From Syntrophobacteraceae bacterium (GTDB lineage Bacteria > Desulfobacterota > Syntrophobacteria > Syntrophobacterales > Syntrophobacteraceae): a stretch of 64,000 bases of DNA. Below, in pieces: positions 43,621 through 58,696 of this stretch. The DNA is taken from positions 1 to 64,000 of the forward strand of contig JALOOX010000013.1 of NCBI GenBank assembly GCA_025454175.1, read 5' to 3'. Every line of letters starts with the position of its first letter. Position 1 is the first letter of the stretch. Under the pieces are notes generated by a model. It did not search any database, was not told where the DNA came from, and saw only the letters and a program-made list of their open reading frames with translations. The translations under genes and the position numbers were made by a program.

Positions 43621-46431
43621 ATGGATAGACTCATAGGCAAGCACTGGCACCACCTTCCCTCGGAAGAGGTGCTCGACCTGATGGACTCCAAGGTCCAGAC
43701 CGGCCTGGATCACTTCGAGGTCGAGATCCGGCAGGAGGAATTCGGCCCCAACCTGCTGTCGCAGAAAAAAGGGCGCGGGCCCATCGTCCGGTTCCTCCTT
43801 CAGTTCCACCAGCCCCTGGTCTACATTCTTCTGAGTGCGGGCGTCGTCACGGGCCTCGTTGCCGAGTGGGTGGATGCCAGCGTTATCCTGGCAGTGGTCC
43901 TCGTCAACGCCGTCATTGGATTCATGCAGGAAGCCAAGGCGGTTCGAGCCATCGAGGCCCTGGCCCGATCCATGACCACCGAAGCCACCGTCATCCGCGG
44001 GGGTGAGGTCCGGAAAGTCTCCTCTTCGGAGCTCGTTCCGGGAGACATCGTTCTGCTTCAGTCCGGCGACAAAATCCCCGCCGACCTGCGACTCCTGAGC
44101 ACCAGGGAGCTGCGCATTGACGAATCGGTCCTCACGGGAGAATCGCTCTCGGTGAGCAAGAGTGCCGAAATCCTGGGCCACGACACGGTCCTGGCCGAGC
44201 GAAGGAATATGGGCTATGCCTCGACCCTCGTCACCTACGGTCAGGGAAAGGGTGTGGTGGTCGCCATCGGGGACGCCACCGAGATGGGCCGGATCTCGAA
44301 GCTGCTCTCCGATGTCGAAAGACTCGAAACGCCGCTCACGCGTCGCATCGCAGCCTTCAGCCGGGTCCTTCTGATCTCCATCCTCGTGCTGGGATGTGCG
44401 ACCTTCGCGGCGGGCATGCTCCACGGCGAAGCCATCATCGATGTGTTCATGGCCGCCGTTGCTCTCACCGTGGGCTCCATTCCCGAGGGCCTTCCGGCGG
44501 CGGTGACCATCATTCTGGCCGTTGGCGTCTCCCGCATGGCCAGGCGGCGGGCCATCATCAGGCGGCTGCCCACCGTCGAAACCCTCGGCAGCACGACGGT
44601 CATCTGTTCCGACAAGACGGGGACCCTCACCGAAAACCAGATGACCGTTCGCGAAATCGTGGCCGGCCCCGTGGAGTACCTGGTCAGCGGGGCGGGCTAT
44701 GATCCCCGGGGGACTATCGAGCCGGCTGACGGCGGCCCGACGCCGGCATCCGAGTCCTCCGCGGCCCTCAGGGAATGCCTCAAGGCAGGCCTGCTCTGCA
44801 ACGACTCCCGCCTCATCCAGGAAGAAGAAGACGGCCGATGGGGGATCCAGGGCGATCCCACCGAGGGGGCCCTCATCGTTTCGGCAAGAAAATACGGCTT
44901 CGACGAAGCGAGCGAGGTTCAGCTGAACCCGCGGATCGACGTCATCCCCTTCGAGTCCGAGCACCAGTACATGGCCACCCTGCATCGGCCGGCCAACGGC
45001 GATTCGCCGATGGTTTACCTGAAGGGCTCCCTCGAATCCCTCCTCGGCCGATGCGAAAACACCCTGGATAACGAGGGACATGTTGTGACCCTTGACCCTG
45101 AAAGTGTCCGTCGCCATGTGGAGGCGATGGGCTGGCAGGGCATGCGGGTCCTGGCCTTTGCCCGAAAGGCCTGGCCGGATTCGGGTCAGCCGCTGACCCA
45201 CGACAGCGTGGCATCGGGGCTCACCTTCCTGGGCCTTCAGGGGATGATCGACCCGCCGCGCCGGGAGGCGATAACGGCGGTCAAGGCGTGCCAGGAGGCC
45301 GGCATCACCGTGAAGATGATCACCGGCGACCACGCCCTGACGGCCGTCTCCATCGCGGGAGACATCGGAATCCTCGGGCTCCAGTCCAGGCTGCCCAGGC
45401 GTGCCAATGTCGTGACGGGACATGACATGTCCCTGATGTCCGACGAAAGACTGACGGACGTCGCAGTTCAGACCAATGTTTTCGCGCGGGTCACTCCGGA
45501 GCAGAAACTGAGGCTGGTGAAAGCCCTTCAAGGCCGCGGAGAGGTGGTGGCCATGACGGGGGACGGCGTCAACGACGCCCCTGCCCTCAAGCAGGCGGAC
45601 ATCGGGGTGGCCATGGGGATTGCCGGCACCGAGGTCTCCAAGGAGGCGGCCGACATGATCCTGACCGACGACAATTTCGCCTCCATCGAGGCGGCCGTCG
45701 AGGAAGGCCGCTGTGTCTTCGACAACCTGGTCAAGTTCATCGTGTGGGCTCTCCCCACCAACCTGGGGCAGGGGCTGGTGATCCTGACGGCGGTCTTCGC
45801 CGGCATCACCCTGCCGATCCTTCCCGTGCAGAGTCTCTGGATCAATATGACCACGGCCGGCGCCCTCGGGCTGATGCTGGCCTTCGAGCCTCGCGAGAGC
45901 GGCGTCATGCAGCGCCCCCCCCGGAACCCCCGGGGTCCCCTTCTTTCAGTGGAGCTCATGGGACGGATGCTTCTGATGGGACTGCTGCTCATGGGAGCAG
46001 CGTACGGCCTTTTCGAATGGAAGGAATTCAACGGCGCAACCCCCGTTCAGGCCCGGACCGTGGCGGTCAACACCTTCGCCGTCATCTCGACCCTCTATCT
46101 TCTCAATTGCCGGTCGCTGGAACGCTCGTACTGGAGCATCGGGGTGTTGAGCAACCGATGGATCCCGCTGGGATTCCTTTTCATGGCCCTGCTCCAGCTG
46201 GCGTTCACCTATCTGCCGTTCATGAACCGGCTCTTCCACACGGAGCCCATCGGTCTCGAATCGTGGGGCGCCATCGCCGCCGTGGCTGTTGTGGCCCACT
46301 TCGTGGTCGGGCTCGAAAAGTTCATGGCCAGGAGGCTGTCCAGAGTGAATCGAGTCGACACTGGGGATGACAGCCCCGATAAAGAGGATTTGGAGCATGA
46401 AGGCAGCGAAACCCGAGAAGCGAGTGCCTGA
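43621..46431 (+). CDS. PII-type cation-transporting P-type ATPase (calcium-ATPase-like)
   Basis: 936 residues. It has an N-terminal cation-ATPase domain (GLDHFEVEIRQEEFGPN), the actuator loop LTGESLSV, membrane helix 4 with SIPEGLPAAVTI (the PEGLP cation site), phosphorylation Asp in CSDKTGTLTENQ near residue 331, nucleotide domain GDPTEGALIV, MTGDGVNDAPALKQADIGVA near 645, and a C-terminal bundle of about six helices. It pumps cations, probably calcium, out of the cytoplasm. The ion choice between Ca and other PII ions is not proven. ATG 43621 is chosen since AAGGA lies upstream; ATG 43588 has no SD sequence. It overlaps the photolyase start by 35 bases. Confidence 0.9.
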   Translation: MDRLIGKHWHHLPSEEVLDLMDSKVQTGLDHFEVEIRQEEFGPNLLSQKKGRGPIVRFLLQFHQPLVYILLSAGVVTGLVAEWVDASVILAVVLVNAVIGFMQEAKAVRAIEALARSMTTEATVIRGGEVRKVSSSELVPGDIVLLQSGDKIPADLRLLSTRELRIDESVLTGESLSVSKSAEILGHDTVLAERRNMGYASTLVTYGQGKGVVVAIGDATEMGRISKLLSDVERLETPLTRRIAAFSRVLLISILVLGCATFAAGMLHGEAIIDVFMAAVALTVGSIPEGLPAAVTIILAVGVSRMARRRAIIRRLPTVETLGSTTVICSDKTGTLTENQMTVREIVAGPVEYLVSGAGYDPRGTIEPADGGPTPASESSAALRECLKAGLLCNDSRLIQEEEDGRWGIQGDPTEGALIVSARKYGFDEASEVQLNPRIDVIPFESEHQYMATLHRPANGDSPMVYLKGSLESLLGRCENTLDNEGHVVTLDPESVRRHVEAMGWQGMRVLAFARKAWPDSGQPLTHDSVASGLTFLGLQGMIDPPRREAITAVKACQEAGITVKMITGDHALTAVSIAGDIGILGLQSRLPRRANVVTGHDMSLMSDERLTDVAVQTNVFARVTPEQKLRLVKALQGRGEVVAMTGDGVNDAPALKQADIGVAMGIAGTEVSKEAADMILTDDNFASIEAAVEEGRCVFDNLVKFIVWALPTNLGQGLVILTAVFAGITLPILPVQSLWINMTTAGALGLMLAFEPRESGVMQRPPRNPRGPLLSVELMGRMLLMGLLLMGAAYGLFEWKEFNGATPVQARTVAVNTFAVISTLYLLNCRSLERSYWSIGVLSNRWIPLGFLFMALLQLAFTYLPFMNRLFHTEPIGLESWGAIAAVAVVAHFVVGLEKFMARRLSRVNRVDTGDDSPDKEDLEHEGSETREASA

Positions 46432-47902
46432 GATTCGAATCACCCCGCTGAATGCCGACTCCATCCGCGCCGATGGCGCTTTTGTGCTCTACTGGATGAC
46501 CGCCTTCCGCCGGGCGCGCTTCAACTTCAGCCTCGAGCGGGCCGTCGAGTGGGCGGAGGAGCTTCGGAAGCCCCTGGTGATCCTGGAGGCCCTGCGATGT
46601 GACTACCCCTGGGCCAGCGATCGCATGCACGCTTTCGTGCTGGACGGTATGCGGGAAAACCGCAAAACCTTCGAAAAAAGATCAGTGCTCTACCATCCGT
46701 ACGTCGAGGAGGAGCGGCATGCGGGAAAAGGTCTGCTGGAGAGTCTGGCGCGCCTGGCCTGTGTCATCGTCACCGACGACTACCCGGCCTTCTTCCTTCC
46801 CAGGATGATCCGCCATGCCGCGTCCAGGGCGGGGATTCGCATGGAAGCCGTGGATTCCAACGGCATTCTGCCCATGAAAGTCGCCGACCGGGTCTTCAGC
46901 ACGGCTTACTCCTTCAGGAGATTTCTCCAGAAGAACCTGCCGGACCACCTGAAGCGTGCTCCACTCGAGGATTCCCTGGTGGGGGTCACCCTCGCGCGGC
47001 TTCCGGGGCTGCCCGCGGAAGTACTGAACCGCTGGCCCGCCGCCCGGGAAGAGCTCCTCAAGGCGGACCCTTCCCATCTGGCCCGCCTGCCCATGGATCA
47101 CTCCGTCAACACGGTGGAAGCTCGAGGAGGAGCCGAAGCAGCCGGGCAAAAGCTCAGCGCATTTGTCGAAAAGCATCTGACCCTCTATCACGAATTGAGA
47201 AATCATCCCGACGAGGACGTGTGCAGCGGTCTTTCTCCCTACCTCCACTTCGGGCACATCTCGAGCCATGAGATCTTCGCGAGGGTGATTGATCAGGAAG
47301 CATGGTCCCCTGCCCTCCTGGTCCAGAAGGCTTCGGGGCAGAGGAGCGGCTGGTGGTCCATGAGCGAGGGGGCCGAGGCCTTCCTGGATCAGGTGATCAC
47401 CTGGCGGGAGCTGGGATTCAACATGTGCTCGCGGGTGGAGGGATACGATCGCTTCGAATCCCTCCCGGAATGGGCCCTGAAGGAGCTTCGGGGCCACGCC
47501 GGCGATCCACGGCCCTACCTCTACCCGCTGGAAGACTTCGAAGCGGCCCGTACCCACGACGAGCTCTGGAACTGCGCCCAGCGCCAGCTCCTTCGGGAGG
47601 GGGCCGTCCACAACTACCCGCGCATGCTCTGGGGGAAGAAGATCCTGGAGTGGTCCCGTTCTCCCGAGGAGGCCCTGGATATCATGATCGAGCTCAACAA
47701 CAAGTATGGTCTGGACGGCAGGGATCCCAACTCGTACACGGGCATCTTCTGGATTTTAGGCCGCTACGATCGTCCCTGGGTGCCCGAGCGGCCCGTATTC
47801 GGCAGAATCCGCTACATGAGCTCGGCGAGCACCCTGCGCAAGCTCAGGCTCCAGGAGTACATGGCGCGCCACTCGGAAAGGTCCGGCCCATGGAGATCCT
47901 GA
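46397..47902 (+). CDS. phrB: Class II CPD photolyase
   Basis: 501 residues. It uses light and FADH- to split cyclobutane pyrimidine dimers. Class II features: VLYWMTAFRRARFNFSLERA at the N-terminus, FVLDGMREN, the FAD region ELRNHPDEDVCSGLSPYLHF followed by GHIS, and the C-terminal MLWGKKILEWS and NKYGLDGRDPNSYTGIFWIL. Presence of photolyase in an otherwise anaerobe-like gene set suggests at least some light exposure or ancestral retention. ATG 46397 has GGAG just upstream and overlaps the P-type ATPase gene end. The next gene starts inside its last codons, so the three may be co-transcribed. Confidence 0.94.
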   Translation: MKAAKPEKRVPEIRITPLNADSIRADGAFVLYWMTAFRRARFNFSLERAVEWAEELRKPLVILEALRCDYPWASDRMHAFVLDGMRENRKTFEKRSVLYHPYVEEERHAGKGLLESLARLACVIVTDDYPAFFLPRMIRHAASRAGIRMEAVDSNGILPMKVADRVFSTAYSFRRFLQKNLPDHLKRAPLEDSLVGVTLARLPGLPAEVLNRWPAAREELLKADPSHLARLPMDHSVNTVEARGGAEAAGQKLSAFVEKHLTLYHELRNHPDEDVCSGLSPYLHFGHISSHEIFARVIDQEAWSPALLVQKASGQRSGWWSMSEGAEAFLDQVITWRELGFNMCSRVEGYDRFESLPEWALKELRGHAGDPRPYLYPLEDFEAARTHDELWNCAQRQLLREGAVHNYPRMLWGKKILEWSRSPEEALDIMIELNNKYGLDGRDPNSYTGIFWILGRYDRPWVPERPVFGRIRYMSSASTLRKLRLQEYMARHSERSGPWRS

Positions 47903-48306
47903 GGAAGCTCGCCGGAATCGTACCCACGGTGGAGGTCTCCCGGGTGATGGACGCACCGCCGGCCGCCGTCTGGGATATCCTCATCGACACCCGCCAGTGG
48001 CCCCGTTGGGGTCCGACGGTTCGAGCCGTTCGATGCTCCCACCGACGGATCGAGCGTGGATCCGAGGGCGCCGTTCAGACGACGGTGGGCGTCTGGCTGC
48101 CTTTCGTCGTCACCCAGCTCACGCCCGAAGCCTACTGGTCCTGGGAGGTGGCCTCGGTGCCGGCCACCGGCCACCGGCTGCGCCGGCTTGGTCCCGGGCG
48201 TTGCGAGGTCGCCTTCGAGGTGCCTCTCCCGGCGGCGCCCTACCTCTTCGTGTGCAGGCTCGCCTTGAACCGCATTGCGGAAATCGCCGCGCCGCAGCCT
48301 GCCTGA
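47890..48306 (+). CDS. SRPBCC (polyketide cyclase / START-like) protein
   Basis: 138 residues. The fold signature is VEVSRVMDAPPAAVWDILID followed by TRQWPRWGPTV, then a run of beta strands and a final helix. SRPBCC proteins bind hydrophobic ligands in a deep cavity; ligand unknown. Its ATG 47890 lies 13 bases before the photolyase stop in a different frame, so translation is likely coupled. A link with light repair is possible but unproven. The C-terminal helix is short, giving a compact family member. Confidence 0.78.
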   Translation: MEILRKLAGIVPTVEVSRVMDAPPAAVWDILIDTRQWPRWGPTVRAVRCSHRRIERGSEGAVQTTVGVWLPFVVTQLTPEAYWSWEVASVPATGHRLRRLGPGRCEVAFEVPLPAAPYLFVCRLALNRIAEIAAPQPA

Positions 48307-48318
48307 TCCTTCGGAATC

Positions 48319-49293
48319 TCAGTCCAGAAAGCACGCCTGCCTCGAAGGAAGCTTTCCCGGGCCCAGGCTCACCTCGGCCAGTGCCTCGCAGATGGCCTCC
48401 TGCATGGAGATGAGGCGAAGCGGGACCAGGTCCCGGATGCGGTGGTCCCGGCAGACGACCTTGTTCTTGAGGCCCTCGACCAGGGGCATGACCACCCCAG
48501 CGGGCACCGGGGTCATGAGATTGATCCAGAAGGATGACAGGTAAGGGGTCAGGACCGGCACGGAGAACACCAGCCTTTTCAGTCCACGCACCCGGGCGTA
48601 GATGAGCATCAACTGCCGGTAGGTGATGATCTCCGGCCCGCCGATGTCGAAATTGCCGCCCGCCGTAGCAGGCTCCCCGAGGCATCCGGCGATATACTCG
48701 ATGACGTTCTGAACGGCGATGGGCTCTCCGGGGGTGTCGATCCAACGCGGGCAGAGCATGACGGGCAGCCGCTCCACCAGGTAGCGCAGCATCTCGAAGG
48801 GAGCGCCTCCCGCCCCGATGATGTTGGCCGCTCGCAGGACCGTCGTCCGGACGGACCCCGACTGGAGGATTTCGCCGACCTGCTGCCGGCTGGCCAGGTG
48901 CGGAGAGAGATTGTCCCCCATCTCGCCGAGCCCCCCGAGGTAGACGATCCGTTTCAAACCGGCCTGTTCCGCCGCCCACATGAAGTTCTCGGCGGCGCGG
49001 ATGTCCCTTTCGATGTAATCCATGTAGTGCAGGACGCTCCGCCCTCCCATGGAATGCACCAGGTAAACCGCCGCGTCCCGGCCCTCCAGCGCGCGCAGCA
49101 GGTCCTCGCGATCCAGAAGGTCCCCTTTGTGCACCTCGACTTGTGGACCCCTTTCGAGACTTCCGCGCAGTCGATGGGTTGAGCGCACCAGGCAGCGCGT
49201 GTGAAACCCCTGGTCCTGGAGCATGGGGAGGAGCCTTCCTCCCACGAAGCCGGTCACGCCGGTCAGCAGCACTTTCCTCACCACTTCAGCCAT
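48319..49293 (-). CDS. Atypical short-chain dehydrogenase (NmrA/YbjT-like NAD-binding)
   Basis: 324 residues. The Rossmann motif is VLLTGVTGFVGGRLLPML (GxxGxxG), then HKGDLLDREDLLRAL, AAVYLVHSMGG and VYLGGLGEMGDNLSPHLASR. The catalytic Tyr-Lys pair of classic SDRs is not in the usual place, as in the atypical SDR_a5/YbjT group that often acts on quinones or as a sensor. It is cytoplasmic. The gene is convergent with the SRPBCC gene, ending 12 bases from it. Likely an oxidoreductase or NAD(P)H-dependent regulator; the substrate is unknown. Confidence 0.82.
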   Translation of the reverse strand: MAEVVRKVLLTGVTGFVGGRLLPMLQDQGFHTRCLVRSTHRLRGSLERGPQVEVHKGDLLDREDLLRALEGRDAAVYLVHSMGGRSVLHYMDYIERDIRAAENFMWAAEQAGLKRIVYLGGLGEMGDNLSPHLASRQQVGEILQSGSVRTTVLRAANIIGAGGAPFEMLRYLVERLPVMLCPRWIDTPGEPIAVQNVIEYIAGCLGEPATAGGNFDIGGPEIITYRQLMLIYARVRGLKRLVFSVPVLTPYLSSFWINLMTPVPAGVVMPLVEGLKNKVVCRDHRIRDLVPLRLISMQEAICEALAEVSLGPGKLPSRQACFLD

Positions 49294-49994: not shown

Positions 49995-51341
49995 TCAATC
50001 CGGACTCCACGCCGGCATCAGCCCATAATACTGCAGCAGTGCGACCAGAAGCACGCCGATGGCTGTGAGGATCATGGAAATGTGATTGGTCCCGGCCGAA
50101 GGGAATTCCCGCCGCAGCCATTCATTGCCGAAGCTCATCAGCTGGCTGATTGCCGCGAGCACCACGATGACGATCCAGTCTCCTCTCTGGAGCAGCCAGG
50201 GGACCAGGGCGACGGTCGACCAGGTGAGCAGGCCTATGGCCGCCGAAATGCGCCATTTTTGCACGCCTTTCATGGCATGGGGGATCACGGCACCTCGCCA
50301 GAGTATGGAAGTCAACAGGGCCATGCAGGAGACGATGAATGGCGAATACAGAAAGTAAAAAAGGGAGAAGACACTCGCTCCAGCGAGGAGCAGAAATGAC
50401 GGCAGCCCCATTCGGAACACGCGCCTGACCTTGACGACGGCGAAGTTCACCGCCAGCTCGGGATAGAAGAAATGGCACAGCGCGTAGACAATGAAACCCA
50501 TGAGCACCGGCAGGAACCAGTAAAAGGACCCCAGGGACCACGTGGCATAGGAAAACAGGATGAACGCCAGCGTCGCCCCGACGTTGAATGGCCGGACCTG
50601 CCACTGGAGAATACCGACCACACAGCAGGTGAAGACAAAGCTCAGGTTTTGATACAGGATCTCCGTGGGTGTCTTGGTGACCAGACGCCCGAGAATCAGG
50701 GCAACCCCCACTGGAACGAAGAGGTTGTCCCAACCCCTGAGCGATACCGCTTCGAATCCCGTGACGAGGAGTGCCACGAGCAAGGCGGCAAGGACAGTCG
50801 TGGAGCGGGGGAAGTCCGCCAGGAGAAGTGTCGGCAGGTGGATGGAAAGGAAGGCGATGATCAAGAAAACCAGGGATCCTTCCAGGCTTTTCCTGGAATC
50901 CTCGATTTCGTAAAGGAGAGTGCCGTAGCGGGTTCCGATCAGCGCCGCGAAAGCATCGGCAACGGCCAGCACCAGCAGTGAGCTCGAATAGAGCCAAAGC
51001 TGATCCCTTGCGATGAGGTAGACCAGAAATATCGCCAGCGGATAGCACTCGCTCCCCCAGGATACCCGATTCACGTCCGTCAGGCTCTTGAGCTGTGAGG
51101 TTTTTGCCCCCAGGGCGAGGACGGCGGTGAAGAGGACAGCCATGGAAAAGACCACCCACGTCGACTGGATGAGAAAGGGAAAGAGGATGCAGGCCACTCC
51201 CGCCAGCAGGTGGATCGTTTTGCGGGTCAGCTCGGGGTCGGCCTTCCACCGTCGTCTCCAGACCTCCGCGGCGGCAAAGATGGAGAAGAAAACGAGCCCG
51301 ACCGTAATGACTCCATAAAGATCATCGCCCAGCAGAGCCAA
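49995..51341 (-). CDS. Dolichol/phytol-kinase and CDP-lipid-transferase-like membrane protein
   Basis: 448 residues, nearly all membrane: about twelve helices. The family signature RKTIHLLAGVACILFPFL and the later AVADAFAALIGTRYG (D-A-x-A-x-x-G-x-x-x-G) match the phosphatidate cytidylyltransferase / dolichol kinase / phytol kinase superfamily. EDSRKSLEGSLVFLI carries the usual K-S-x-EGS motif. Such enzymes phosphorylate isoprenoid alcohols with CTP, or activate lipids with CDP. It is the last gene of the six-gene operon that also holds a UbiA prenyltransferase and a BtaA-like enzyme. The extra C-terminal membrane domain (after about residue 240) is longer than in simple phytol kinases. Confidence 0.8.
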   Translation of the reverse strand: MALLGDDLYGVITVGLVFFSIFAAAEVWRRRWKADPELTRKTIHLLAGVACILFPFLIQSTWVVFSMAVLFTAVLALGAKTSQLKSLTDVNRVSWGSECYPLAIFLVYLIARDQLWLYSSSLLVLAVADAFAALIGTRYGTLLYEIEDSRKSLEGSLVFLIIAFLSIHLPTLLLADFPRSTTVLAALLVALLVTGFEAVSLRGWDNLFVPVGVALILGRLVTKTPTEILYQNLSFVFTCCVVGILQWQVRPFNVGATLAFILFSYATWSLGSFYWFLPVLMGFIVYALCHFFYPELAVNFAVVKVRRVFRMGLPSFLLLAGASVFSLFYFLYSPFIVSCMALLTSILWRGAVIPHAMKGVQKWRISAAIGLLTWSTVALVPWLLQRGDWIVIVVLAAISQLMSFGNEWLRREFPSAGTNHISMILTAIGVLLVALLQYYGLMPAWSPD

Positions 51342-51403
51342 TTCCGGTTCTCCTTCCTCCCAGGGAGCCTGTTCGTGGTCGCCCGGAGCGGATCAGACCG
51401 TTT

Positions 51404-52795
51404 TCACCACTTGATTCCCTTGGCGGAAAGGAAATCCTGAGCAGCTTTCCATCCGAGCCTCGCCGCCACTTTCTGGTCGTCCAGGGCCTGGTCCATGTGC
51501 CCCAGCTTCATGTGAGTGAGCCCCCGGTTGAAATAGGCCATGGCCAGGCTGGGGTCCAGTTCGATGGCCCGGGCAAAATCCTCCAGGGCTTTCTCCTCCT
51601 CGCCCAGAATCGAGTGAACCCGCCCCCGGTTTGCATAGGCCAGCGAGCATCGGTCATTGATCTCGATGACCCTGCTGTACTCATCGCGGGCCTTTGAAAA
51701 GGATCGTCTTCTCTGATGCAGCTCCCCCGCGTGGAAATGAGCGATCCACATCCTGCTGTCCAGGGAGATGGCACGATGGAAGTCGCCAAAGGCTTGCCTG
51801 TGGTAACCCCTCTTGCTGTATGCATTGCCGCGATGGACGTAGGCGATGGCGAGACCGGGGTCCAGGGCGATCGCCCTCGTCAGGTCGTCGATGGCATGTC
51901 TGTTCTTGCCCGCGATGTCATGGACGATTCCCCGAAGGAGATAGGCCTCCGCAAGGTTCGGGTCGATGCTGACGGCGGATTGGATCTCGGCGAGGGCTTC
52001 CTCATGGCGTCCCTGGCCGTGCAGCACTTCACCCCGGCCCAGATGAGGCGCGGCATAATGCCGATCCAGGGCGATCGCCCGATCGTAGTCCATCAGTGCC
52101 CTCGCCTCATCCCCCATCCTTGCATGAGCCACCCCGCGGTAATGGTACAATCTGGCATCGCCAGGAGCTCTGTTGATGACCTCCGTAAGGATCTCCACGG
52201 CGTCGCTCAACCGGCCGCCGGCCAATGAGGTCAGCCCCCTGGCGTAGGCGCTCACGGCTTCAAGCTCCTCGAGAGACCGGTAATATCGATACATCCTCGG
52301 ACGTTCCACCCGGGCTTCCCGGTGCTCACGGTTGATTTCGTCGATCTCCTGGAGGATAACCTCCGCCCTTTTGGCCGACAAAACCAGCTCCTGCTCGATA
52401 TGCCAGTCTTGACGAACGAGCCGCACGACTTTCAGGAGATCGTCCGTTCCACCGCTTGGCCTGGCCGTCAAGGTGTACACGGTCCCGTCCCATTTCTCGT
52501 GGACGGTCTCGACCTGCACGAGGAGTGTCAGCAAGGCCGCCGCACCGTCCTTGTCCACTCCGAGCTGTCTCAACCGTCCCCCCTGTTCGAGATTTTCGGC
52601 CATTTCGGAGGCGAGGATGCGCTTGACTCTCTCCAGGGCGATGATCCTGCTGGAGTGCTTGCTGTCTATCTCGCAGGGGTGAAAGGTGTACTGGATGACA
52701 GGGCTTGCCCCGGCTCCCGCAGGCGTCGGCACCGGTCCCGTCATGGCGAGGGTGAACAGCACGAGGATGCAGGGACGAAGACATGAGCACTTCAT
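51404..52795 (-). CDS. Exported TPR-repeat protein
   Basis: 463 residues. A signal peptide (CLRPCILVLFTLAMTGPVPT) is followed by a charged region, then about eight tetratricopeptide repeats, e.g. ARLYHYRGVAHARMGDEARA, AYLLRGIVHDIAGKNRHAID and CSLAYANRGRVHSILGEEEK. TPR proteins are scaffolds for protein contacts. AGGGGAA precedes ATG 52795; a longer start at 52957 would give no signal peptide. In the lipid operon it may hold enzymes or a transport complex together at the outer face of the membrane. No enzymatic motif is present. Confidence 0.85.
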   Translation of the reverse strand: MKCSCLRPCILVLFTLAMTGPVPTPAGAGASPVIQYTFHPCEIDSKHSSRIIALERVKRILASEMAENLEQGGRLRQLGVDKDGAAALLTLLVQVETVHEKWDGTVYTLTARPSGGTDDLLKVVRLVRQDWHIEQELVLSAKRAEVILQEIDEINREHREARVERPRMYRYYRSLEELEAVSAYARGLTSLAGGRLSDAVEILTEVINRAPGDARLYHYRGVAHARMGDEARALMDYDRAIALDRHYAAPHLGRGEVLHGQGRHEEALAEIQSAVSIDPNLAEAYLLRGIVHDIAGKNRHAIDDLTRAIALDPGLAIAYVHRGNAYSKRGYHRQAFGDFHRAISLDSRMWIAHFHAGELHQRRRSFSKARDEYSRVIEINDRCSLAYANRGRVHSILGEEEKALEDFARAIELDPSLAMAYFNRGLTHMKLGHMDQALDDQKVAARLGWKAAQDFLSAKGIKW

Positions 52796-52832
52796 CCCGA
52801 TTCCCCTGTGATCCCGGTTGAATCGACATTTC

Positions 52833-53960
52833 TCATGCGTTGTACTCGTAGAGGGCATATTCCCTCGAAGGGAGAGGCGCATCACCTGCCAGGAGTCGAT
52901 GCGCCACGTTTCCCCTGGCCATGAGGGGAACGATGACACGCTCGAAGCCTTCCTCAAGGATATTCCGCATGACGAAGGAAAACATCGCCCCTCCGAGCCC
53001 CCGTCGTTTTGCCGCCTCTTCCGGCGTAATCCCGATGATATAGAAATTGATGGAGTCTGCCCGACGTCGGCGGCGGAGAAATCGAAGCATGCCCATGAGC
53101 CTGCCGGAGCCGCTCAAGGCGCGCACCGCATCGGAGAGCTCCAGGAAAGCCGCCGCAAACCCGGCCAGTACACTCTTTTCATCATAGACGAAGCAGAAGA
53201 GGCGCGGATGCAGCGCGAAGCGCGCCCGCTCCCCGAACAGCTCCTCGAATTCGGCCCGGGGGATCGGCGTGAAGCCGGGAAAGCCCTCGAATGAGCGGCA
53301 GAGCACGGAGTGCAGCGTGCCCATTTCCTGCCGGAACCGCCTGGTGTCGAAGGTGACGAAACGGTACCCCAAGCCGGTCAGAACATGGTATCGGTCCTGG
53401 TACCGGGCGGCCATACGGCCCAGGAGCTGCCGTCCCTCCAACTCCACCGTGTCCCAGAAGTGTCTCGCCACGAAGCCGTTCTGGTCGAACAATCGCGGAT
53501 AGTAGGGTTTGTTGGTGGGCTCACCGTAAAACGGCTTCCGCTCAAAACCCCGGATCATCAGGCGGTAGGCGTGCCAGATGTCGAAATTCATGGGTCCCCA
53601 GATTCTTGTGGCACGGCATTCCTCGCGAAGCCACGCAACGGCCGCATCGAACAGATCCCGGGCGACGGCATCGTCCTCCCGGCATTCGAAAAAGCCGACG
53701 GTTGACACCGGGGTGCCGTCCCGGTCCTTCAGAGCGGCATTCACCATTGCTGAAATGCGGCCCACGACCTCGCCGCCCCGCCGGGCAATGAAGTGGTTGT
53801 GGCGGTTTCCGGGCTTCCGATAAAACGGATAGCCAGGCGACAGCTGGGCGGCAAGGTCTTTCCGAACCGGGGGGATCCAGCCGGCATCGCCATGGTAGAG
53901 GTCGTGACCGAATCTGATGAATTCCCGGGTCAGGACCGGCTCGAAGGTGAATGAAGTCAC
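52833..53960 (-). CDS. GNAT-like acyltransferase homologue
   Basis: 375 residues. An N-terminal part has WIPPVRKDLAAQLSPGYPFY and HNHFIARRGGEVVGRISAMV; a C-terminal part has IGITPEEAAKRRGLGGAMFS with the R-x-x-G-x-G-like pattern of the acetyl-CoA-binding loop. Two GNAT-like halves are likely, though the acyl donor is unknown. GTG 53960 overlaps the stop of the PEP-utilising gene as GTGA; GTG 53963 is also possible. In the operon it would be the natural candidate for an acyl or aminoacyl transfer step on the lipid. Family identity is not fully certain. Confidence 0.62.
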   Translation of the reverse strand: MTSFTFEPVLTREFIRFGHDLYHGDAGWIPPVRKDLAAQLSPGYPFYRKPGNRHNHFIARRGGEVVGRISAMVNAALKDRDGTPVSTVGFFECREDDAVARDLFDAAVAWLREECRATRIWGPMNFDIWHAYRLMIRGFERKPFYGEPTNKPYYPRLFDQNGFVARHFWDTVELEGRQLLGRMAARYQDRYHVLTGLGYRFVTFDTRRFRQEMGTLHSVLCRSFEGFPGFTPIPRAEFEELFGERARFALHPRLFCFVYDEKSVLAGFAAAFLELSDAVRALSGSGRLMGMLRFLRRRRRADSINFYIIGITPEEAAKRRGLGGAMFSFVMRNILEEGFERVIVPLMARGNVAHRLLAGDAPLPSREYALYEYNA

Positions 53961-56608
53961 CACCAGTGGACCTCTCCCTTCTCGCCGTCCACAACGATCC
54001 TGGCGCCGTCGGGGATACGTTTCGTGGCATCCTTGACCCCGACAACGGTCGGAATGCCGAGCTCCCGCCCGATGATGGCCGTGTGGGACAGGAGGCTTCC
54101 CTTTTCGACCACCAGGCCCTTGGACATGACCATCAGGAAGACCCAGCCGGGGTCCGTCGACCTCGCCACGAGTATGGTGTCAGCCCCGCCGGCCTGCTCC
54201 GAAGGCGAAACGACTATCCTTGCCGTCCCTTCGGCGACCCCCGAGACGCATCCCACCCCCTTCAGGGTTTTGCCGGTCGAGTGACATGCCTCCGGCTCGT
54301 GCAATCCGCAGAGGTAGGGAATTCCCTCCGTCCGGAAGCGGTCGGACGCCGGCATGCGACTGAACCGGTCATACTCGGCCTTGCGTATCGAGACGAGAAC
54401 GGCGGGGCTTTGATCGACCGATGTGCCGCGGCAGAACCCGAAAATCTCGTCGACGGTCAGGTAGAAAATGTCACGGGGTGATTCGACGATCCCCTTTTCC
54501 GCCCAGAGCTCCCCCATGCGCCTGAACAGCCTTCGGGCCAGGCCGAAGACGCGGCTCCGACGGAACCGCATGTTCTCGCGGCTGACGATGGCGAATCGCG
54601 CATTGCGGAGGACGAATTCAAAGGGGAACCGTCTCCAGGAGCTCTTCAGCCCGCGCTGGAGAGCTTCCTCCGCGTTGCATCGAATGAACTGGTTCTGTGT
54701 TTTCATCTTCTCCACGGTCAGTCCAAGGGCCGCATAGTTGCGGATCAGACCAATCAAGGCGGCCGGGTCGTCGCGATAGCTCGGCTTCTCGAGCTTCAGC
54801 TCCTCCGAGGCCCGGTCCCCGAATCGCCGCAGGTAGTCGTCCAGCGCGGCCTGCACTGCCGGCGGGGCTTCGCCACCGCTCACGATCTCCCAGACTTCGC
54901 TGTCGCTCTTCGAATCGAGCAGCGCTCTGAGGTCCGAATCCGCCCGGAACATCTCGGCGATCCGGACGAGGGCGTGGACAACGGCGACACTCTCCACGCC
55001 ATGTTCGCCGCACAGGAGATTGTTGCACAGGTTGGGCTCCTCCGCGGGCCCCCATTGCTCACAAAACCTTTGCAGCCAGTCATAATATTTGATCGCACAG
55101 TAGTCGTTGAACAGCGTCAGATGCCACTTCCGCATGAGATCCTTTTCCAGGGTCTCATAGGTCGAAATCAGGTCTTCCTCGTCGGCCGAACGGAGGTCCA
55201 TGTCCCCGTATTTCCCGTAAACCCTGTCGTAAATGGCATAAAAAGCCTCTGCGTTCCATTTCGGGGTAAGAAGCCGGAAGATGGCGAATGCGAATCCGTA
55301 CGCGCGGTTGACGAGGGACAGGCGGGCTGAGGGGAAATCCGTCCGGTTGCGGATGCCGATCATCTCGTCCCAGGACGTCTTGTATTGCCTGTACCCGGGC
55401 AGGTACGACATCATCCGGTACCAGTTGAGGAGATTGTAGTAAACGCGTCCGTTCAGGAGGCCCACCATGCTTTTGAAGATGGAGAGATCCCCCGCGATAT
55501 CCCTCTTGTAAAGGAGGAAGCCGAGGGTTGCGCTCCGGAAGAGATGCTCGTAACAGCTGCGGATGAAGCTGAAGGTGAGGGGCAGTGTCAGGCCGGGATA
55601 GCCTTCAACGATGTTGGAATTGTCCCAGATGCGGACGGTTCCACCGTGCTGGCCGGCCTCGGGCATCACGATGGGTCGCGCTTGCAGCAGGAAGAGACGG
55701 TCCGCTTCGTCATGAGCCCACTCGATGTCCTGGGGACATCCCAGGTGCTGCTCCACCCGGGCCCCCACCCTCGCCAGCTCCACGATCTGACGGTCGGACA
55801 AAACCCGCCGGCACCGCCAGTCCCGAGGAAGCTCTTCCATGCGGAGTCCGCCGGATGCGTCGACCGTCATACGCCAGTCCTTGGCAGGGACTTCCATGGC
55901 GAGGATCTCGAGATCGCGGCTGACAATGTAGGTGTCCGTCTCGACCTTGTTGGCCACAACCCCTTCCCCGATGCCGAACCCAGCGGCGATGACGGAGCGC
56001 TTCTCACCGGATCTGGGATCATGTGTGAAAAGAACGCCCGAGGCTCGAGAATGGATCATCTCCTGGATGATGACCGCCGCCGAGATGTCTCCGAAGCCGA
56101 TGCTCTTGCGATGTCGATACACCAGGGCCCTCACGGAGAACGCCGAAGCCCAGACTTTCCTGACGGCATCCTCCACCCCCTGGGACGGAACGTTCAGAAA
56201 GGAGTCCATCTGACCCGCAAAGGAGTGCCTGACCGAGTCCTCTCCCACGATGGAGGAGCGAACCGAGAATGTCGCCTGATCGTTGAACAAAGCGAGCAAC
56301 GCTTCCCCCAAGGACCGGCGGACGGGCTCCGGGATCTCCAGCCCCAGGACAACGGCACGAATCCTCGAAGAGGCCATCTCCAGGGACTCGGGATCCGTCA
56401 TGGCAATACAGCCCGTGATGCCGGTGATCTCCTCCCGGCGCGGAGCGATGAGGGCGTCGAACAGGGAGCTGCTGATGATCAGCCATGGAGGCACGGGCAT
56501 TCCGCATCGGGCCAGGCGGAACAGATTCCATCCCTTGCCGCCGGCCTGGCGCTGGGTGAAAGCCCCCATCGGGATTGTCCAGGGCAGCAGGTAATCCGTC
56601 GCCGACAT
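53957..56608 (-). CDS. PEP-synthase/PPDK-like dikinase or phosphotransferase
   Basis: 883 residues. The N-terminal ATP-grasp domain shows GGKGWNLFRLARCGMPVPPW, the nucleotide loop FSVRSSIVGEDSVRHSFAGQ and VIIQEMIHSRASGVLFTHDP. The C-terminal swivelling domain has GSLLSHTAIIGRELGIPTVV with the phospho-accepting His near residue 841. The pyruvate-binding TIM barrel of true PEP synthase is absent; the middle part is unlike it, so it may transfer phosphate to another acceptor, as rifampin phosphotransferase does. Its length matches that group. It lies between the UbiA and GNAT-like genes, and its stop overlaps the latter. A role in phosphorylating a lipid precursor is inferred. Confidence 0.82.
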   Translation of the reverse strand: MSATDYLLPWTIPMGAFTQRQAGGKGWNLFRLARCGMPVPPWLIISSSLFDALIAPRREEITGITGCIAMTDPESLEMASSRIRAVVLGLEIPEPVRRSLGEALLALFNDQATFSVRSSIVGEDSVRHSFAGQMDSFLNVPSQGVEDAVRKVWASAFSVRALVYRHRKSIGFGDISAAVIIQEMIHSRASGVLFTHDPRSGEKRSVIAAGFGIGEGVVANKVETDTYIVSRDLEILAMEVPAKDWRMTVDASGGLRMEELPRDWRCRRVLSDRQIVELARVGARVEQHLGCPQDIEWAHDEADRLFLLQARPIVMPEAGQHGGTVRIWDNSNIVEGYPGLTLPLTFSFIRSCYEHLFRSATLGFLLYKRDIAGDLSIFKSMVGLLNGRVYYNLLNWYRMMSYLPGYRQYKTSWDEMIGIRNRTDFPSARLSLVNRAYGFAFAIFRLLTPKWNAEAFYAIYDRVYGKYGDMDLRSADEEDLISTYETLEKDLMRKWHLTLFNDYCAIKYYDWLQRFCEQWGPAEEPNLCNNLLCGEHGVESVAVVHALVRIAEMFRADSDLRALLDSKSDSEVWEIVSGGEAPPAVQAALDDYLRRFGDRASEELKLEKPSYRDDPAALIGLIRNYAALGLTVEKMKTQNQFIRCNAEEALQRGLKSSWRRFPFEFVLRNARFAIVSRENMRFRRSRVFGLARRLFRRMGELWAEKGIVESPRDIFYLTVDEIFGFCRGTSVDQSPAVLVSIRKAEYDRFSRMPASDRFRTEGIPYLCGLHEPEACHSTGKTLKGVGCVSGVAEGTARIVVSPSEQAGGADTILVARSTDPGWVFLMVMSKGLVVEKGSLLSHTAIIGRELGIPTVVGVKDATKRIPDGARIVVDGEKGEVHWW

Positions 56609-56619
56609 GCATGCTCCTT

Positions 56620-57513
56620 CTACATGGGAAGGATATGGGACAAAAGCCCACCCACGAAAAGGCTCATCCCGTATTGTTCAGCATAGGGCTTCAGTTTCGA
56701 TGTCGCTGGGCTCGGTTCACGGAGGAAGCGCCCGTGAGCCATGAGCGTCCTCGCGTATGCCGCAGCCAGGATGGCGGGGAAAAGCCACGGGATGGCCAGC
56801 ACCCGGTAGAGATGGATCCCGATGGCAAAGGCGGCGGTCTGTGCCCCCAGGGCCAGCGCAACGGCTCCCCCGGGGCCCAGGATGCGCGAGTAGGTCACGT
56901 AGGCGCTTTCCTCTTCGGGGGCCCGGATCTTGCGACAGATTTCCCAGGCCAGCAGAACCGACCAGTACATGACCACCAGCAGGGTCGTGCGGGAGCCTTC
57001 GATGTGGGCGAGGGCAAGCCCGTGCTCCGCGGAAAACAATACGACGACGTAGCCCAGCAGGATCGGGATGACGGGGTTGTGCGTGATGAGGGCGAGGAGC
57101 AGATGCTTTCGCAGGATTCGGGGAATGAAGAAAAAACGGAACATCAGCAGGGAGTAGGCCAGAACGATCAGGGCCATCCAGAGGGCCCGCCCGGTCCAGA
57201 TGTTGGCCAGCACGAAAAGAACGATGACGGCGATGAGACTCGCCACGATGTCCTGCTCCAGGACACGCCCCGAGGGGAAAGGTCGGTGGGCAAAAAGCTC
57301 CCTGTCGATCTCCCTGTCCTTCAGCTCGTCCATCAGGCGCAAAATCAGCATGAAGCAGAAGATACTCCAGACGCCCGTGATGGTGTAAGGCGTCAGGAGT
57401 GGAGCCCGGATGCCGTGGATGCTCATCAGGAAAGACACAAAGCTGGTGTAGAGCACCGCCGCGAAAATCATCCGCCGCGGAACGGGATACATTTCGGCCA
57501 GGTAAATCCTCAT
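56620..57513 (-). CDS. UbiA-family prenyltransferase-like membrane protein
   Basis: 297 residues with about eight or nine membrane helices. Helix-2 region RLMDELKDREIDRELFAHRP contains the D-x-x-D-x-x-x-D acidic cluster, followed by FPSGRV, equivalent to NDxxDxxxD...RP-PSG of UbiA enzymes. A second acidic loop is less clear (APEEESAYVTYSRILGPGG). UbiA proteins attach isoprenyl chains to acceptors inside the membrane; others make archaeal-type ether lipids. ATG 57513 is the first sensible start, with AGG close by. It sits 52 bases after the BtaA-like gene and 11 before the PEP-utilising gene. Confidence 0.72.
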   Translation of the reverse strand: MRIYLAEMYPVPRRMIFAAVLYTSFVSFLMSIHGIRAPLLTPYTITGVWSIFCFMLILRLMDELKDREIDRELFAHRPFPSGRVLEQDIVASLIAVIVLFVLANIWTGRALWMALIVLAYSLLMFRFFFIPRILRKHLLLALITHNPVIPILLGYVVVLFSAEHGLALAHIEGSRTTLLVVMYWSVLLAWEICRKIRAPEEESAYVTYSRILGPGGAVALALGAQTAAFAIGIHLYRVLAIPWLFPAILAAAYARTLMAHGRFLREPSPATSKLKPYAEQYGMSLFVGGLLSHILPM

Positions 57514-57565
57514 CCTGCCAAAATAACCCCGCAGACGTTGATGAGTAATCCCAGGAGCTTCCCCC

Positions 57566-58696
57566 TTAGAGCATCCTGACCTGCTCGATGACCAGTGCCT
57601 TGTAGAAGAACGCCTTGTCCTGAAGGTGCAGCTCGTTCGCCAGACCGTCGAGTGCCTCCAGCCGGTTCCTGAAGCCGGGGGGAGATTTCCGGTCCGCCAG
57701 CATGTTCCAATAGACCAGCCGGGCGCCGTTCCGGGCCGACCGCACAATCCGGTCCAGTCCGGCCAGGTACTCTTCGAAGCTCATATATTCAAAGATATCC
57801 GAGAGGTTAAATCCGTCGAAGACGACATCCGGGTGAGCCTGAATCGCTTCGTCAACGGTCCCCTCGAAAAGAACCAGGCTGTCGAGGTTGCCTCGGATGG
57901 CTTCAAAATTCTCCTCGCGCAGATAGAACGGGAGCGCGGCTCCAAAGTTTCCCCTCACGATGAAATGCAGGTAAGGGTTGCGCTCCGTCGGTAAAGTGGT
58001 CAGGGCGTGCCGAGCCCGATCGAGGAGCTGTGCAGCCACGCTTCCTTCGATGTACCGGAAGAATTCCGGGTCCCGGCCCAGCCTCCCCAGCAGCGTTCTG
58101 CTGAAAAAGAACCTGAAAAGCAACCGCCATCGAAGGGAATCCCATCGCTTGGCGTAGAATTCCCTTCGGGCCTCGGCATCCCTGGGCTTCAGAAGATCGG
58201 ATATGACTTGCCTGCCGTGGATGAACGGGAGAATGACGTTGCGGAAAAGACGAAAATAGTGCTCGAACTTTCCCGAGTGAATGACGCCGGCCTCGATCAG
58301 CTCCCGTCGGCCGTCCCAGAATTGACGGGCCGTTTCGTTGATGGAGCCCCTCAGCCGTTCGTAGGTCCTCATGCGCCCGGACCCTTCCCGCACTCCCAGG
58401 AACTGCAGCACTGCCCCGTGAGACAAGTTCAGAAAGGCAGCCTTGCGAAGCTCCACGCATGCAAGCTGCGCCGGGCTTATGTCTGCCGTGACAACGAGGG
58501 CCGGCCCCCTGCCGAGGATGCTGAGCGTGTTGTCTCCCGCGGATGACACAGACAGGTAGAGTCCGCCCTTCCTGACCTGCAGGGCTTCGAGAAGGATGTC
58601 GGCATCCTCCCAGCAGTTGGCATAGCGAACGAAATCAAACCGCGCACGCTCCTCTATGGTGGACCTGTGCGTCACGCGTCCGCTGCCCCATTCCAT
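57566..58696 (-). CDS. BtaA-like (DUF3419) S-adenosylmethionine:3-amino-3-carboxypropyltransferase
   Basis: 376 residues. FVRYANCWEDADILLEALQV, SVSSAGDNTLSIL (SAM-binding glycine loop region) and VVTADISPAQLACVELRKAA match the BtaA family, which transfers the 3-amino-3-carboxypropyl group from SAM to diacylglycerol, the first step to betaine lipids. FDGFNLSDIFEYMSFEEYLA is the usual C-terminal block. The first gene of the six-gene operon. No BtaB-like N-methyltransferase is present, so a homoserine-lipid or a different acceptor is possible. An acceptor made by the UbiA-like and kinase-like partners would be new. Cytoplasmic, membrane-associated by family. Confidence 0.84.
   Translation of the reverse strand: MEWGSGRVTHRSTIEERARFDFVRYANCWEDADILLEALQVRKGGLYLSVSSAGDNTLSILGRGPALVVTADISPAQLACVELRKAAFLNLSHGAVLQFLGVREGSGRMRTYERLRGSINETARQFWDGRRELIEAGVIHSGKFEHYFRLFRNVILPFIHGRQVISDLLKPRDAEARREFYAKRWDSLRWRLLFRFFFSRTLLGRLGRDPEFFRYIEGSVAAQLLDRARHALTTLPTERNPYLHFIVRGNFGAALPFYLREENFEAIRGNLDSLVLFEGTVDEAIQAHPDVVFDGFNLSDIFEYMSFEEYLAGLDRIVRSARNGARLVYWNMLADRKSPPGFRNRLEALDGLANELHLQDKAFFYKALVIEQVRML

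Follow-up and report, generated by a model that had tools for sequence, protein, structure and literature searches.

Which product would a bacterium make with an operon that combines a relative of the betaine-lipid enzyme BtaA, a UbiA-like intramembrane transferase and a phosphoenolpyruvate (PEP)-synthase-like dikinase? We address this question for six close-packed open reading frames on the minus strand at positions 49995-58696 of a 64,000-nucleotide stretch (the window) of contig JALOOX010000013.1 from a Syntrophobacteraceae bacterium (assembly GCA_025454175.1). An original prediction, made from the sequence alone, had described six minus-strand genes with gaps of at most 62 bases and one overlap. 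All six were confirmed as present, and their coordinates and spacing were reproduced, with intergenic gaps along the operon of 52, 11, -7 (the overlap), 37 and 62 bases. Here we report that five of the six genes belong to a set whose members stay clustered, mostly in one order, in bacteria of more than 20 phyla and which probably makes a so far undescribed membrane lipid. The operon comprises the following genes.

57566..58696, minus strand: DUF3419 protein, clade-B aminocarboxypropyltransferase-like, 376 amino acids; first gene of the operon (PF11899, 3e-60)
56620..57513, minus strand: UbiA-like intramembrane transferase, form 2, 297 amino acids (NCBIfam NF010118, 2.1e-44)
53957..56608, minus strand: PEP-synthase-like dikinase without the pyruvate barrel, 883 amino acids (PPDK_N, 2.3e-72, and PEP-utilizers, 7.5e-24)
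52833..53963, minus strand: tandem-GNAT N-acyltransferase, 376 amino acids (Acetyltransf_1, PF00583, 1.2e-5); 7-base overlap with the dikinase gene
51404..52795, minus strand: tetratricopeptide repeat (TPR) protein with a probable signal peptide, 463 amino acids (many TPR matches)
49995..51341, minus strand: membrane protein resembling Dgk1, phytol kinase and dolichol kinase, 448 amino acids; motifs conserved in relatives, no Pfam match of its own

The families first proposed for the DUF3419, dikinase (without barrel), GNAT and TPR proteins agree with Pfam domain searches. An anti-phage defence system was rejected, as none of the six proteins matched a PADLOC defence-system model.

A gene set kept together across phyla

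An initial search for relatives found UbiA-like and dikinase genes adjacent in three further genomes from the phylum. When 84,980 genomes were scanned with the dikinase's central domain, 417 relatives were returned; 80 loci were kept, and profiles applied to all six reading frames identified their neighbouring genes. In a well-flanked set, made up of the 52 loci that have 4 kb or more on either side and including the window and two loci of its phylum (L035 and L036), UbiA-like, dikinase and DUF3419 genes stand together in 45. Counted singly near the dikinase, the UbiA-like gene is present in 49/52 loci, DUF3419 in 46/52, the kinase-like gene in 43/52 and GNAT in 42/52. Two further genes recur, an AMP-ligase (36/52) and a gene resembling 3-hydroxy-3-methylglutaryl-coenzyme A (HMG-CoA) reductase (HMGR; 29/52), and 17 loci have in common the order HMGR-UbiA-dikinase-DUF3419-kinase-GNAT-AMP-ligase. 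According to record titles, the relatives span more than 20 phylum-level groups, among them Bacteroidota, Ignavibacteriota, Gemmatimonadota, Acidobacteriota, Pseudomonadota, Desulfobacterota, Cyanobacteriota and Melainabacteria, Planctomycetota, Verrucomicrobiota, Omnitrophota, Fibrobacterota, Actinomycetota and Bacillota. Most carriers are metagenome assemblies, but the gene set is also found in Alkalilimnicola ehrlichii and Brevibacillus laterosporus and, in the named isolate Roseinatronobacter sp. S2, on a complete plasmid.

Control genes outside the cluster were examined for the same partners. None of 28 paralogous dikinases from relatives of the window genome has a UbiA, DUF3419, kinase or GNAT partner within 1.5 kb. 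DUF3419 genes were sampled in two phyla and scored with the cluster profile: genes at 103-156 likewise have no partner within 1.5 kb, whereas all six at 435-550 have partners; three are intermediate (232-355), one of which adjoins a GNAT gene. With paralogue controls lacking partners and five of six genes recurring together across phyla, we reject a chance clustering of common families. Pairwise divergence is correlated between cluster genes (distance matrices, r 0.43-0.92; permutation p=0.005, the minimum for 200 shuffles), a pattern compatible with either shared descent or co-transfer. The original prediction had looked to co-occurrence in distant phyla as support for one pathway and had held that finding the genes together in this genome only would count against it. 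Because UbiA, dikinase and DUF3419 do co-occur in distant phyla, a single pathway is strongly supported.

The TPR gene is the exception. It shares the transcription unit and lies outside the conserved set; among profile-called neighbours at related loci it has no consistent counterpart. We therefore reject the exported TPR protein as a pathway member, a role it had been given at first, and regard the gene as local to the window genome. This local gene, together with the mosaic make-up of the window copy described below, could be taken to mean that the six genes share a place and not a pathway. Such a reading is already contradicted for five of the six by same-order seven-gene sets in many phyla, by the correlated divergence and by orderly functional replacements, and we consider it very improbable.

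The operon has the appearance of a lineage-specific gain: in a genome of the same genus (G001), the neighbouring block is retained (window 44002-49281, 77-82% identity), but the match stops just before the operon, and the best dikinase match in that genome is only partial. A scan of viral contigs with the DUF3419 protein of the window found nothing. To the extent of the open-access literature, to which our search was confined (subscription papers and preprints lay outside it), no description of the gene set was found, and DUF3419 itself is mentioned in few papers; the pathway was rightly called undescribed in this respect. Positions 46367-47902 of the window encode a 511-amino-acid protein resembling class II photolyase, with no Pfam match at 1e-5.

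Two forms of the set and the copy in the window

Elsewhere, the set is larger and takes two forms. Form 1 is the seven-gene set of HMGR, UbiA, dikinase, DUF3419, kinase, GNAT and AMP-ligase. Form 2 consists of a thioester-reductase short-chain dehydrogenase/reductase (SDR), a YegS-type lipid kinase, the second form of UbiA, dikinase, GNAT, a phosphatidylserine decarboxylase (PSD)-like protein, DUF3419 and a LolE/LolD-like ABC transporter. The window draws on both: its DUF3419 (56-65% identity to nearest relatives) and kinase (57%) are of form 1, and its UbiA (58%), dikinase (51%) and GNAT (54%) are of form 2. Judged from these similarities, the window copy is a reduced hybrid of two recurring forms, and the hybrid itself recurs, since the acidobacterial loci L048 and L052 show the same combination in a different gene order.

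Several other genes adjoin the cluster at particular loci. At L077, L105 and L093 it has a cytochrome P450 gene and a sulfotransferase gene (PF13469) beside it, and at L084 and L118 a P450 gene alone, which suggests tailoring of the product. MMPL/RND-type exporter genes adjoin it in several phyla (L076, L080, L081, L082, L085, L092, L094, L102 and L110), which hints at transport of the product across or between membranes. At L059, L061, L070, L078, L086 and L090, mostly in Gastranaerophilales and rumen genomes, the neighbour is a 1156-amino-acid fusion of major facilitator superfamily, acyltransferase and AMP-ligase parts that resembles LplT-Aas. In the window genome, four PSD-like genes are present (G000:C46, C80 and C120), and one of them (L192, 340 amino acids), a candidate partner in trans, is distantly related to the cluster PSD, with 25-27% identity over most of its length.

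A candidate amino-lipid pathway

The two forms and their variants contain pairs of genes that never occur in one locus. Fisher tests within the core loci gave p=0.0014 for GNAT versus formyltransferase (39 and 3 loci), p=0.006 for kinase versus YegS (41 and 2) and p=0.0004 for AMP-ligase versus PSD-like protein (34 and 5). These p values are optimistic, since related loci, of which there are many, each counted as a separate observation. Read chemically, the first pair suggests that an amine receives a cap, the second that a lipid alcohol is phosphorylated, and the third that a carboxylate is activated in some loci and removed in others. Transfer of an aminocarboxypropyl group by DUF3419 would supply both the amine and the carboxylate and thus fits the amine-cap and carboxylate replacements.

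From gene content, conserved association, replacement pattern and catalytic residues, we infer the substrates, the sequence of the reactions and the final product. Our preferred reading, which we hold with somewhat less than even confidence, is that the gene set makes an N-acylated, homoserine-type (aminocarboxypropyl) ether amino-lipid of the membrane or envelope, and that the window carries a reduced hybrid copy. The core would be formed by the UbiA-like enzyme, the dikinase, DUF3419, the lipid-alcohol kinase and the N-acyltransferase. The kinase-like enzyme would phosphorylate a lipid alcohol, and the UbiA-like enzyme would build the lipid backbone; the dikinase would assist it, either by phosphorylating the acceptor or by using a phospho-histidine to activate a substrate. 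DUF3419 would transfer the 3-amino-3-carboxypropyl group of S-adenosylmethionine (SAM) to a hydroxyl, and the resulting homoserine-type ether would carry a carboxylate and a free amine. GNAT would acylate that amine, which in some lineages might be capped by the formyltransferase. In the form present in the window, the carboxylate would be retained; elsewhere it may be removed by the PSD-like enzyme or activated by the AMP-ligase and possibly then reduced by the HMGR-like enzyme.

The context of the cluster points to lipids: the UbiA profile lies near digeranylgeranylglyceryl phosphate (DGGGP) synthase, and YegS lipid kinase, PSD, MMPL exporter and Aas-like acyltransferase genes are neighbours. 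The unusual-lipid pathway put forward originally is supported in its membrane-lipid enzymes, the lipid product itself being putative. Other observations weigh against the homoserine-type amino-lipid. In addition to the optimistic p values above, HMGR and SDR, which also never share a locus (28 and 2), do not exclude each other significantly (p=0.14), and reductases are present in PSD-bearing loci as well, an observation left unexplained by a simple scheme of carboxylate treatment. HMGR, cluster-type AMP-ligase and thioester reductase are all missing from the window genome, and the AMP-ligases and SDRs that it does encode, considered as candidate partners in trans, have scores far removed from those of the cluster types. 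Moreover, clade-B DUF3419 proteins differ from BtaA by several substitutions at positions that are fixed within each group, so that their acceptor and even their reaction may differ from those of BtaA.

The main rival is an exported small-molecule natural product, such as a pigment, signal, antibiotic or metal ligand, in which the dikinase would join two building blocks in the manner of the prodigiosin ligases PigC and RedH and the UbiA-like enzyme would prenylate the product. The dikinase does match the PigC and RedH models over their full length, at about 313-341 bits, below the equivalog cut-offs of 1300-1350. The P450 and sulfotransferase genes beside some copies, the patchy distribution, the plasmid copy and the absence of the operon from the same place in the same-genus genome would also suit such a product. 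However, polyketide, peptide or pyrrole genes do not recur beside the cluster, and the lipid kinase, PSD-like, Aas-like and MMPL partners, together with the lipid family to which DUF3419 belongs, favour a lipid. On balance, we consider a natural product unlikely.

For the gene set as a whole, we suggest with more reserve that the seven-gene pathway of more than 20 phyla might produce an undescribed membrane-lipid class. Its SAM-derived aminocarboxypropyl head would be N-acylated or N-formylated, and reduced or decarboxylated, by way of a DUF3419 enzyme with a new acceptor, a remodelled UbiA-type enzyme and an HMGR converted into a thioester reductase of a lipid pathway. If so, a major class of bacterial membrane lipids, from Bacteroidota and Cyanobacteriota to Bacillota, would have gone unnoticed, and HMG-CoA-reductase genes in bacteria without a mevalonate pathway would be accounted for. 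The gene set would make such a lipid directly accessible to lipidomics in culturable hosts, for example the two named species above, A. ehrlichii and B. laterosporus. It would also counsel caution in taking every DUF3419 gene as a sign of betaine-lipid synthesis.

Comparison with known enzyme systems

The DUF3419 protein of the window resembles BtaA of the BtaA/BtaB betaine-lipid system, for which a lipid-related context is expected, in its Pfam family (PF11899, 204.9 bits versus a curated cut-off of 28.2) and in its SAM motif; Y25, W29-E30-D31, S52, G54, N56 and D72 are common to the cluster clade and canonical BtaA. It falls in the cluster clade nonetheless, with nearest relatives from Omnitrophota and Geobacteraceae loci. 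Scores against the cluster profile separate canonical DUF3419 proteins (103-156) from most cluster members (435-550), with a few intermediates. Three Bacteroidota genes (L152, L148 and L145) hold such an intermediate position, and L145 adjoins a GNAT and a YegS-like gene. A sequence search of PDB gave no match for DUF3419. By its sequence, then, the window protein belongs to a sister clade and was not correctly identified as BtaA outright; because of this position, transfer to diacylglycerol, as catalysed by BtaA, should not be taken for granted.

Family membership and the retained SAM motif could still speak for an ordinary betaine lipid, diacylglyceryl-trimethylhomoserine or diacylglyceryl-homoserine, made by BtaA within an unusual operon. 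We give this reading hardly any weight and reject the canonical system: the clade is separate, with group-specific fixed residues; a BtaB-like gene is found neither in the operon, as noted from the start, nor recurring at cluster loci; and canonical BtaA genes at the loci checked never stand beside the UbiA-like, dikinase, kinase and GNAT partners of the cluster DUF3419.

The UbiA-like protein has its nearest solved relative, at the level of the profile, in DGGGP synthase (6m31, E 3.9e-8) and shares with the UbiA superfamily the first Asp-rich motif, DExKDxxxD, which is invariant in 27/27 sequences. It differs from that superfamily in the second Asp motif, replaced by ExxRK in 27/27 (ExxRK...E...Y). 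The UbiA-type call holds through the NF010118 match, which lies below the equivalog cut-off, and through relatives (23/27 match PF01040; form-2 relatives are 44-58% identical), although the window protein alone has no Pfam match. This kinship raises the alternative of an archaeal-style isoprenoid ether lipid, in which the UbiA-like enzyme would prenylate a phospho-polyol as DGGGP synthase does and HMGR would supply mevalonate. In its favour, the best solved relative of the HMGR-like enzyme is an archaeal-type HMG-CoA reductase. Against it, no mevalonate supply or geranylgeranylglyceryl phosphate synthase gene is adjacent, the second Asp motif is replaced, HMGR is missing from the window genome, and HMG-CoA synthase was not found in 35/36 carrier genomes. 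A prenyl tail might still come from the methylerythritol phosphate pathway. On this evidence, we regard the mevalonate-fed alternative as rather improbable.

The HMGR-like enzyme of the related loci belongs to the fold family of class I HMG-CoA reductase and keeps all four catalytic residues (E559, K691, D767 and H866) in 27/27 copies. It departs from that enzyme in the loss of K735, the lysine that we take, from the human HMG-CoA reductase structure, to bind the HMG carboxylate, and in the change of S684 to Glu, each in 27/27. Because K735 is lost and HMG-CoA synthase is missing, a mevalonate route is unlikely, and we reject the supply of mevalonate or isoprenoids as the role of this enzyme. 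HMGRs of Vibrio, Photobacterium and Alteromonas (L183, L184 and L185) likewise lack K735 and S684, and no adjacent mevalonate gene was seen there; one is on a Vibrio fluvialis plasmid, and that of Alteromonas comes after a set of 'thermostable hemolysin', AMP-binding, iron-containing redox and SDR genes.

The dikinase has ATP-binding and phospho-histidine domains arranged as in PEP synthase, rifampin phosphotransferase and PigC/RedH, and it matches NF004881, like the PigC and RedH models, full-length and below cut-off. It differs in having its own central domain and, in Pfam searches, no C-terminal pyruvate-binding barrel, and its scores fall far short of all curated cut-offs for these named enzymes. 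At least 95% of 60 sequences retain the phospho-histidine H842. PEP-synthase-like dikinases form an unusually expanded family in the window genome and same-family genomes, with about 4 to 16 matches each. The GNAT protein is confidently predicted to have a tandem-type GNAT fold (model pLDDT 93.7), its top PDB fold matches being tandem GNATs such as MAB_4324 and mycothiol synthase.

For the kinase-like protein, a fold search gave no significant match, CdsA being the most probable and weak. The original assignment to dolichol or phytol kinases draws support from its motifs; 4/28 relatives match CTP_transf_1 weakly (some match DUF92 weakly), whereas the window protein matches neither. E37, RKxxH, D129, G155-S156, E197 and GxDN are invariant or nearly so across 28 relatives, and elsewhere a YegS lipid kinase replaces the gene. 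With Dgk1, phytol kinase and dolichol kinase of the CTP_transf_1 clan, the protein thus has in common the RKxxH, D, EGS and GxDN motifs, which presumably mark the Dgk1/phytol-kinase group; it is set apart by its great divergence and by extra C-terminal membrane helices.

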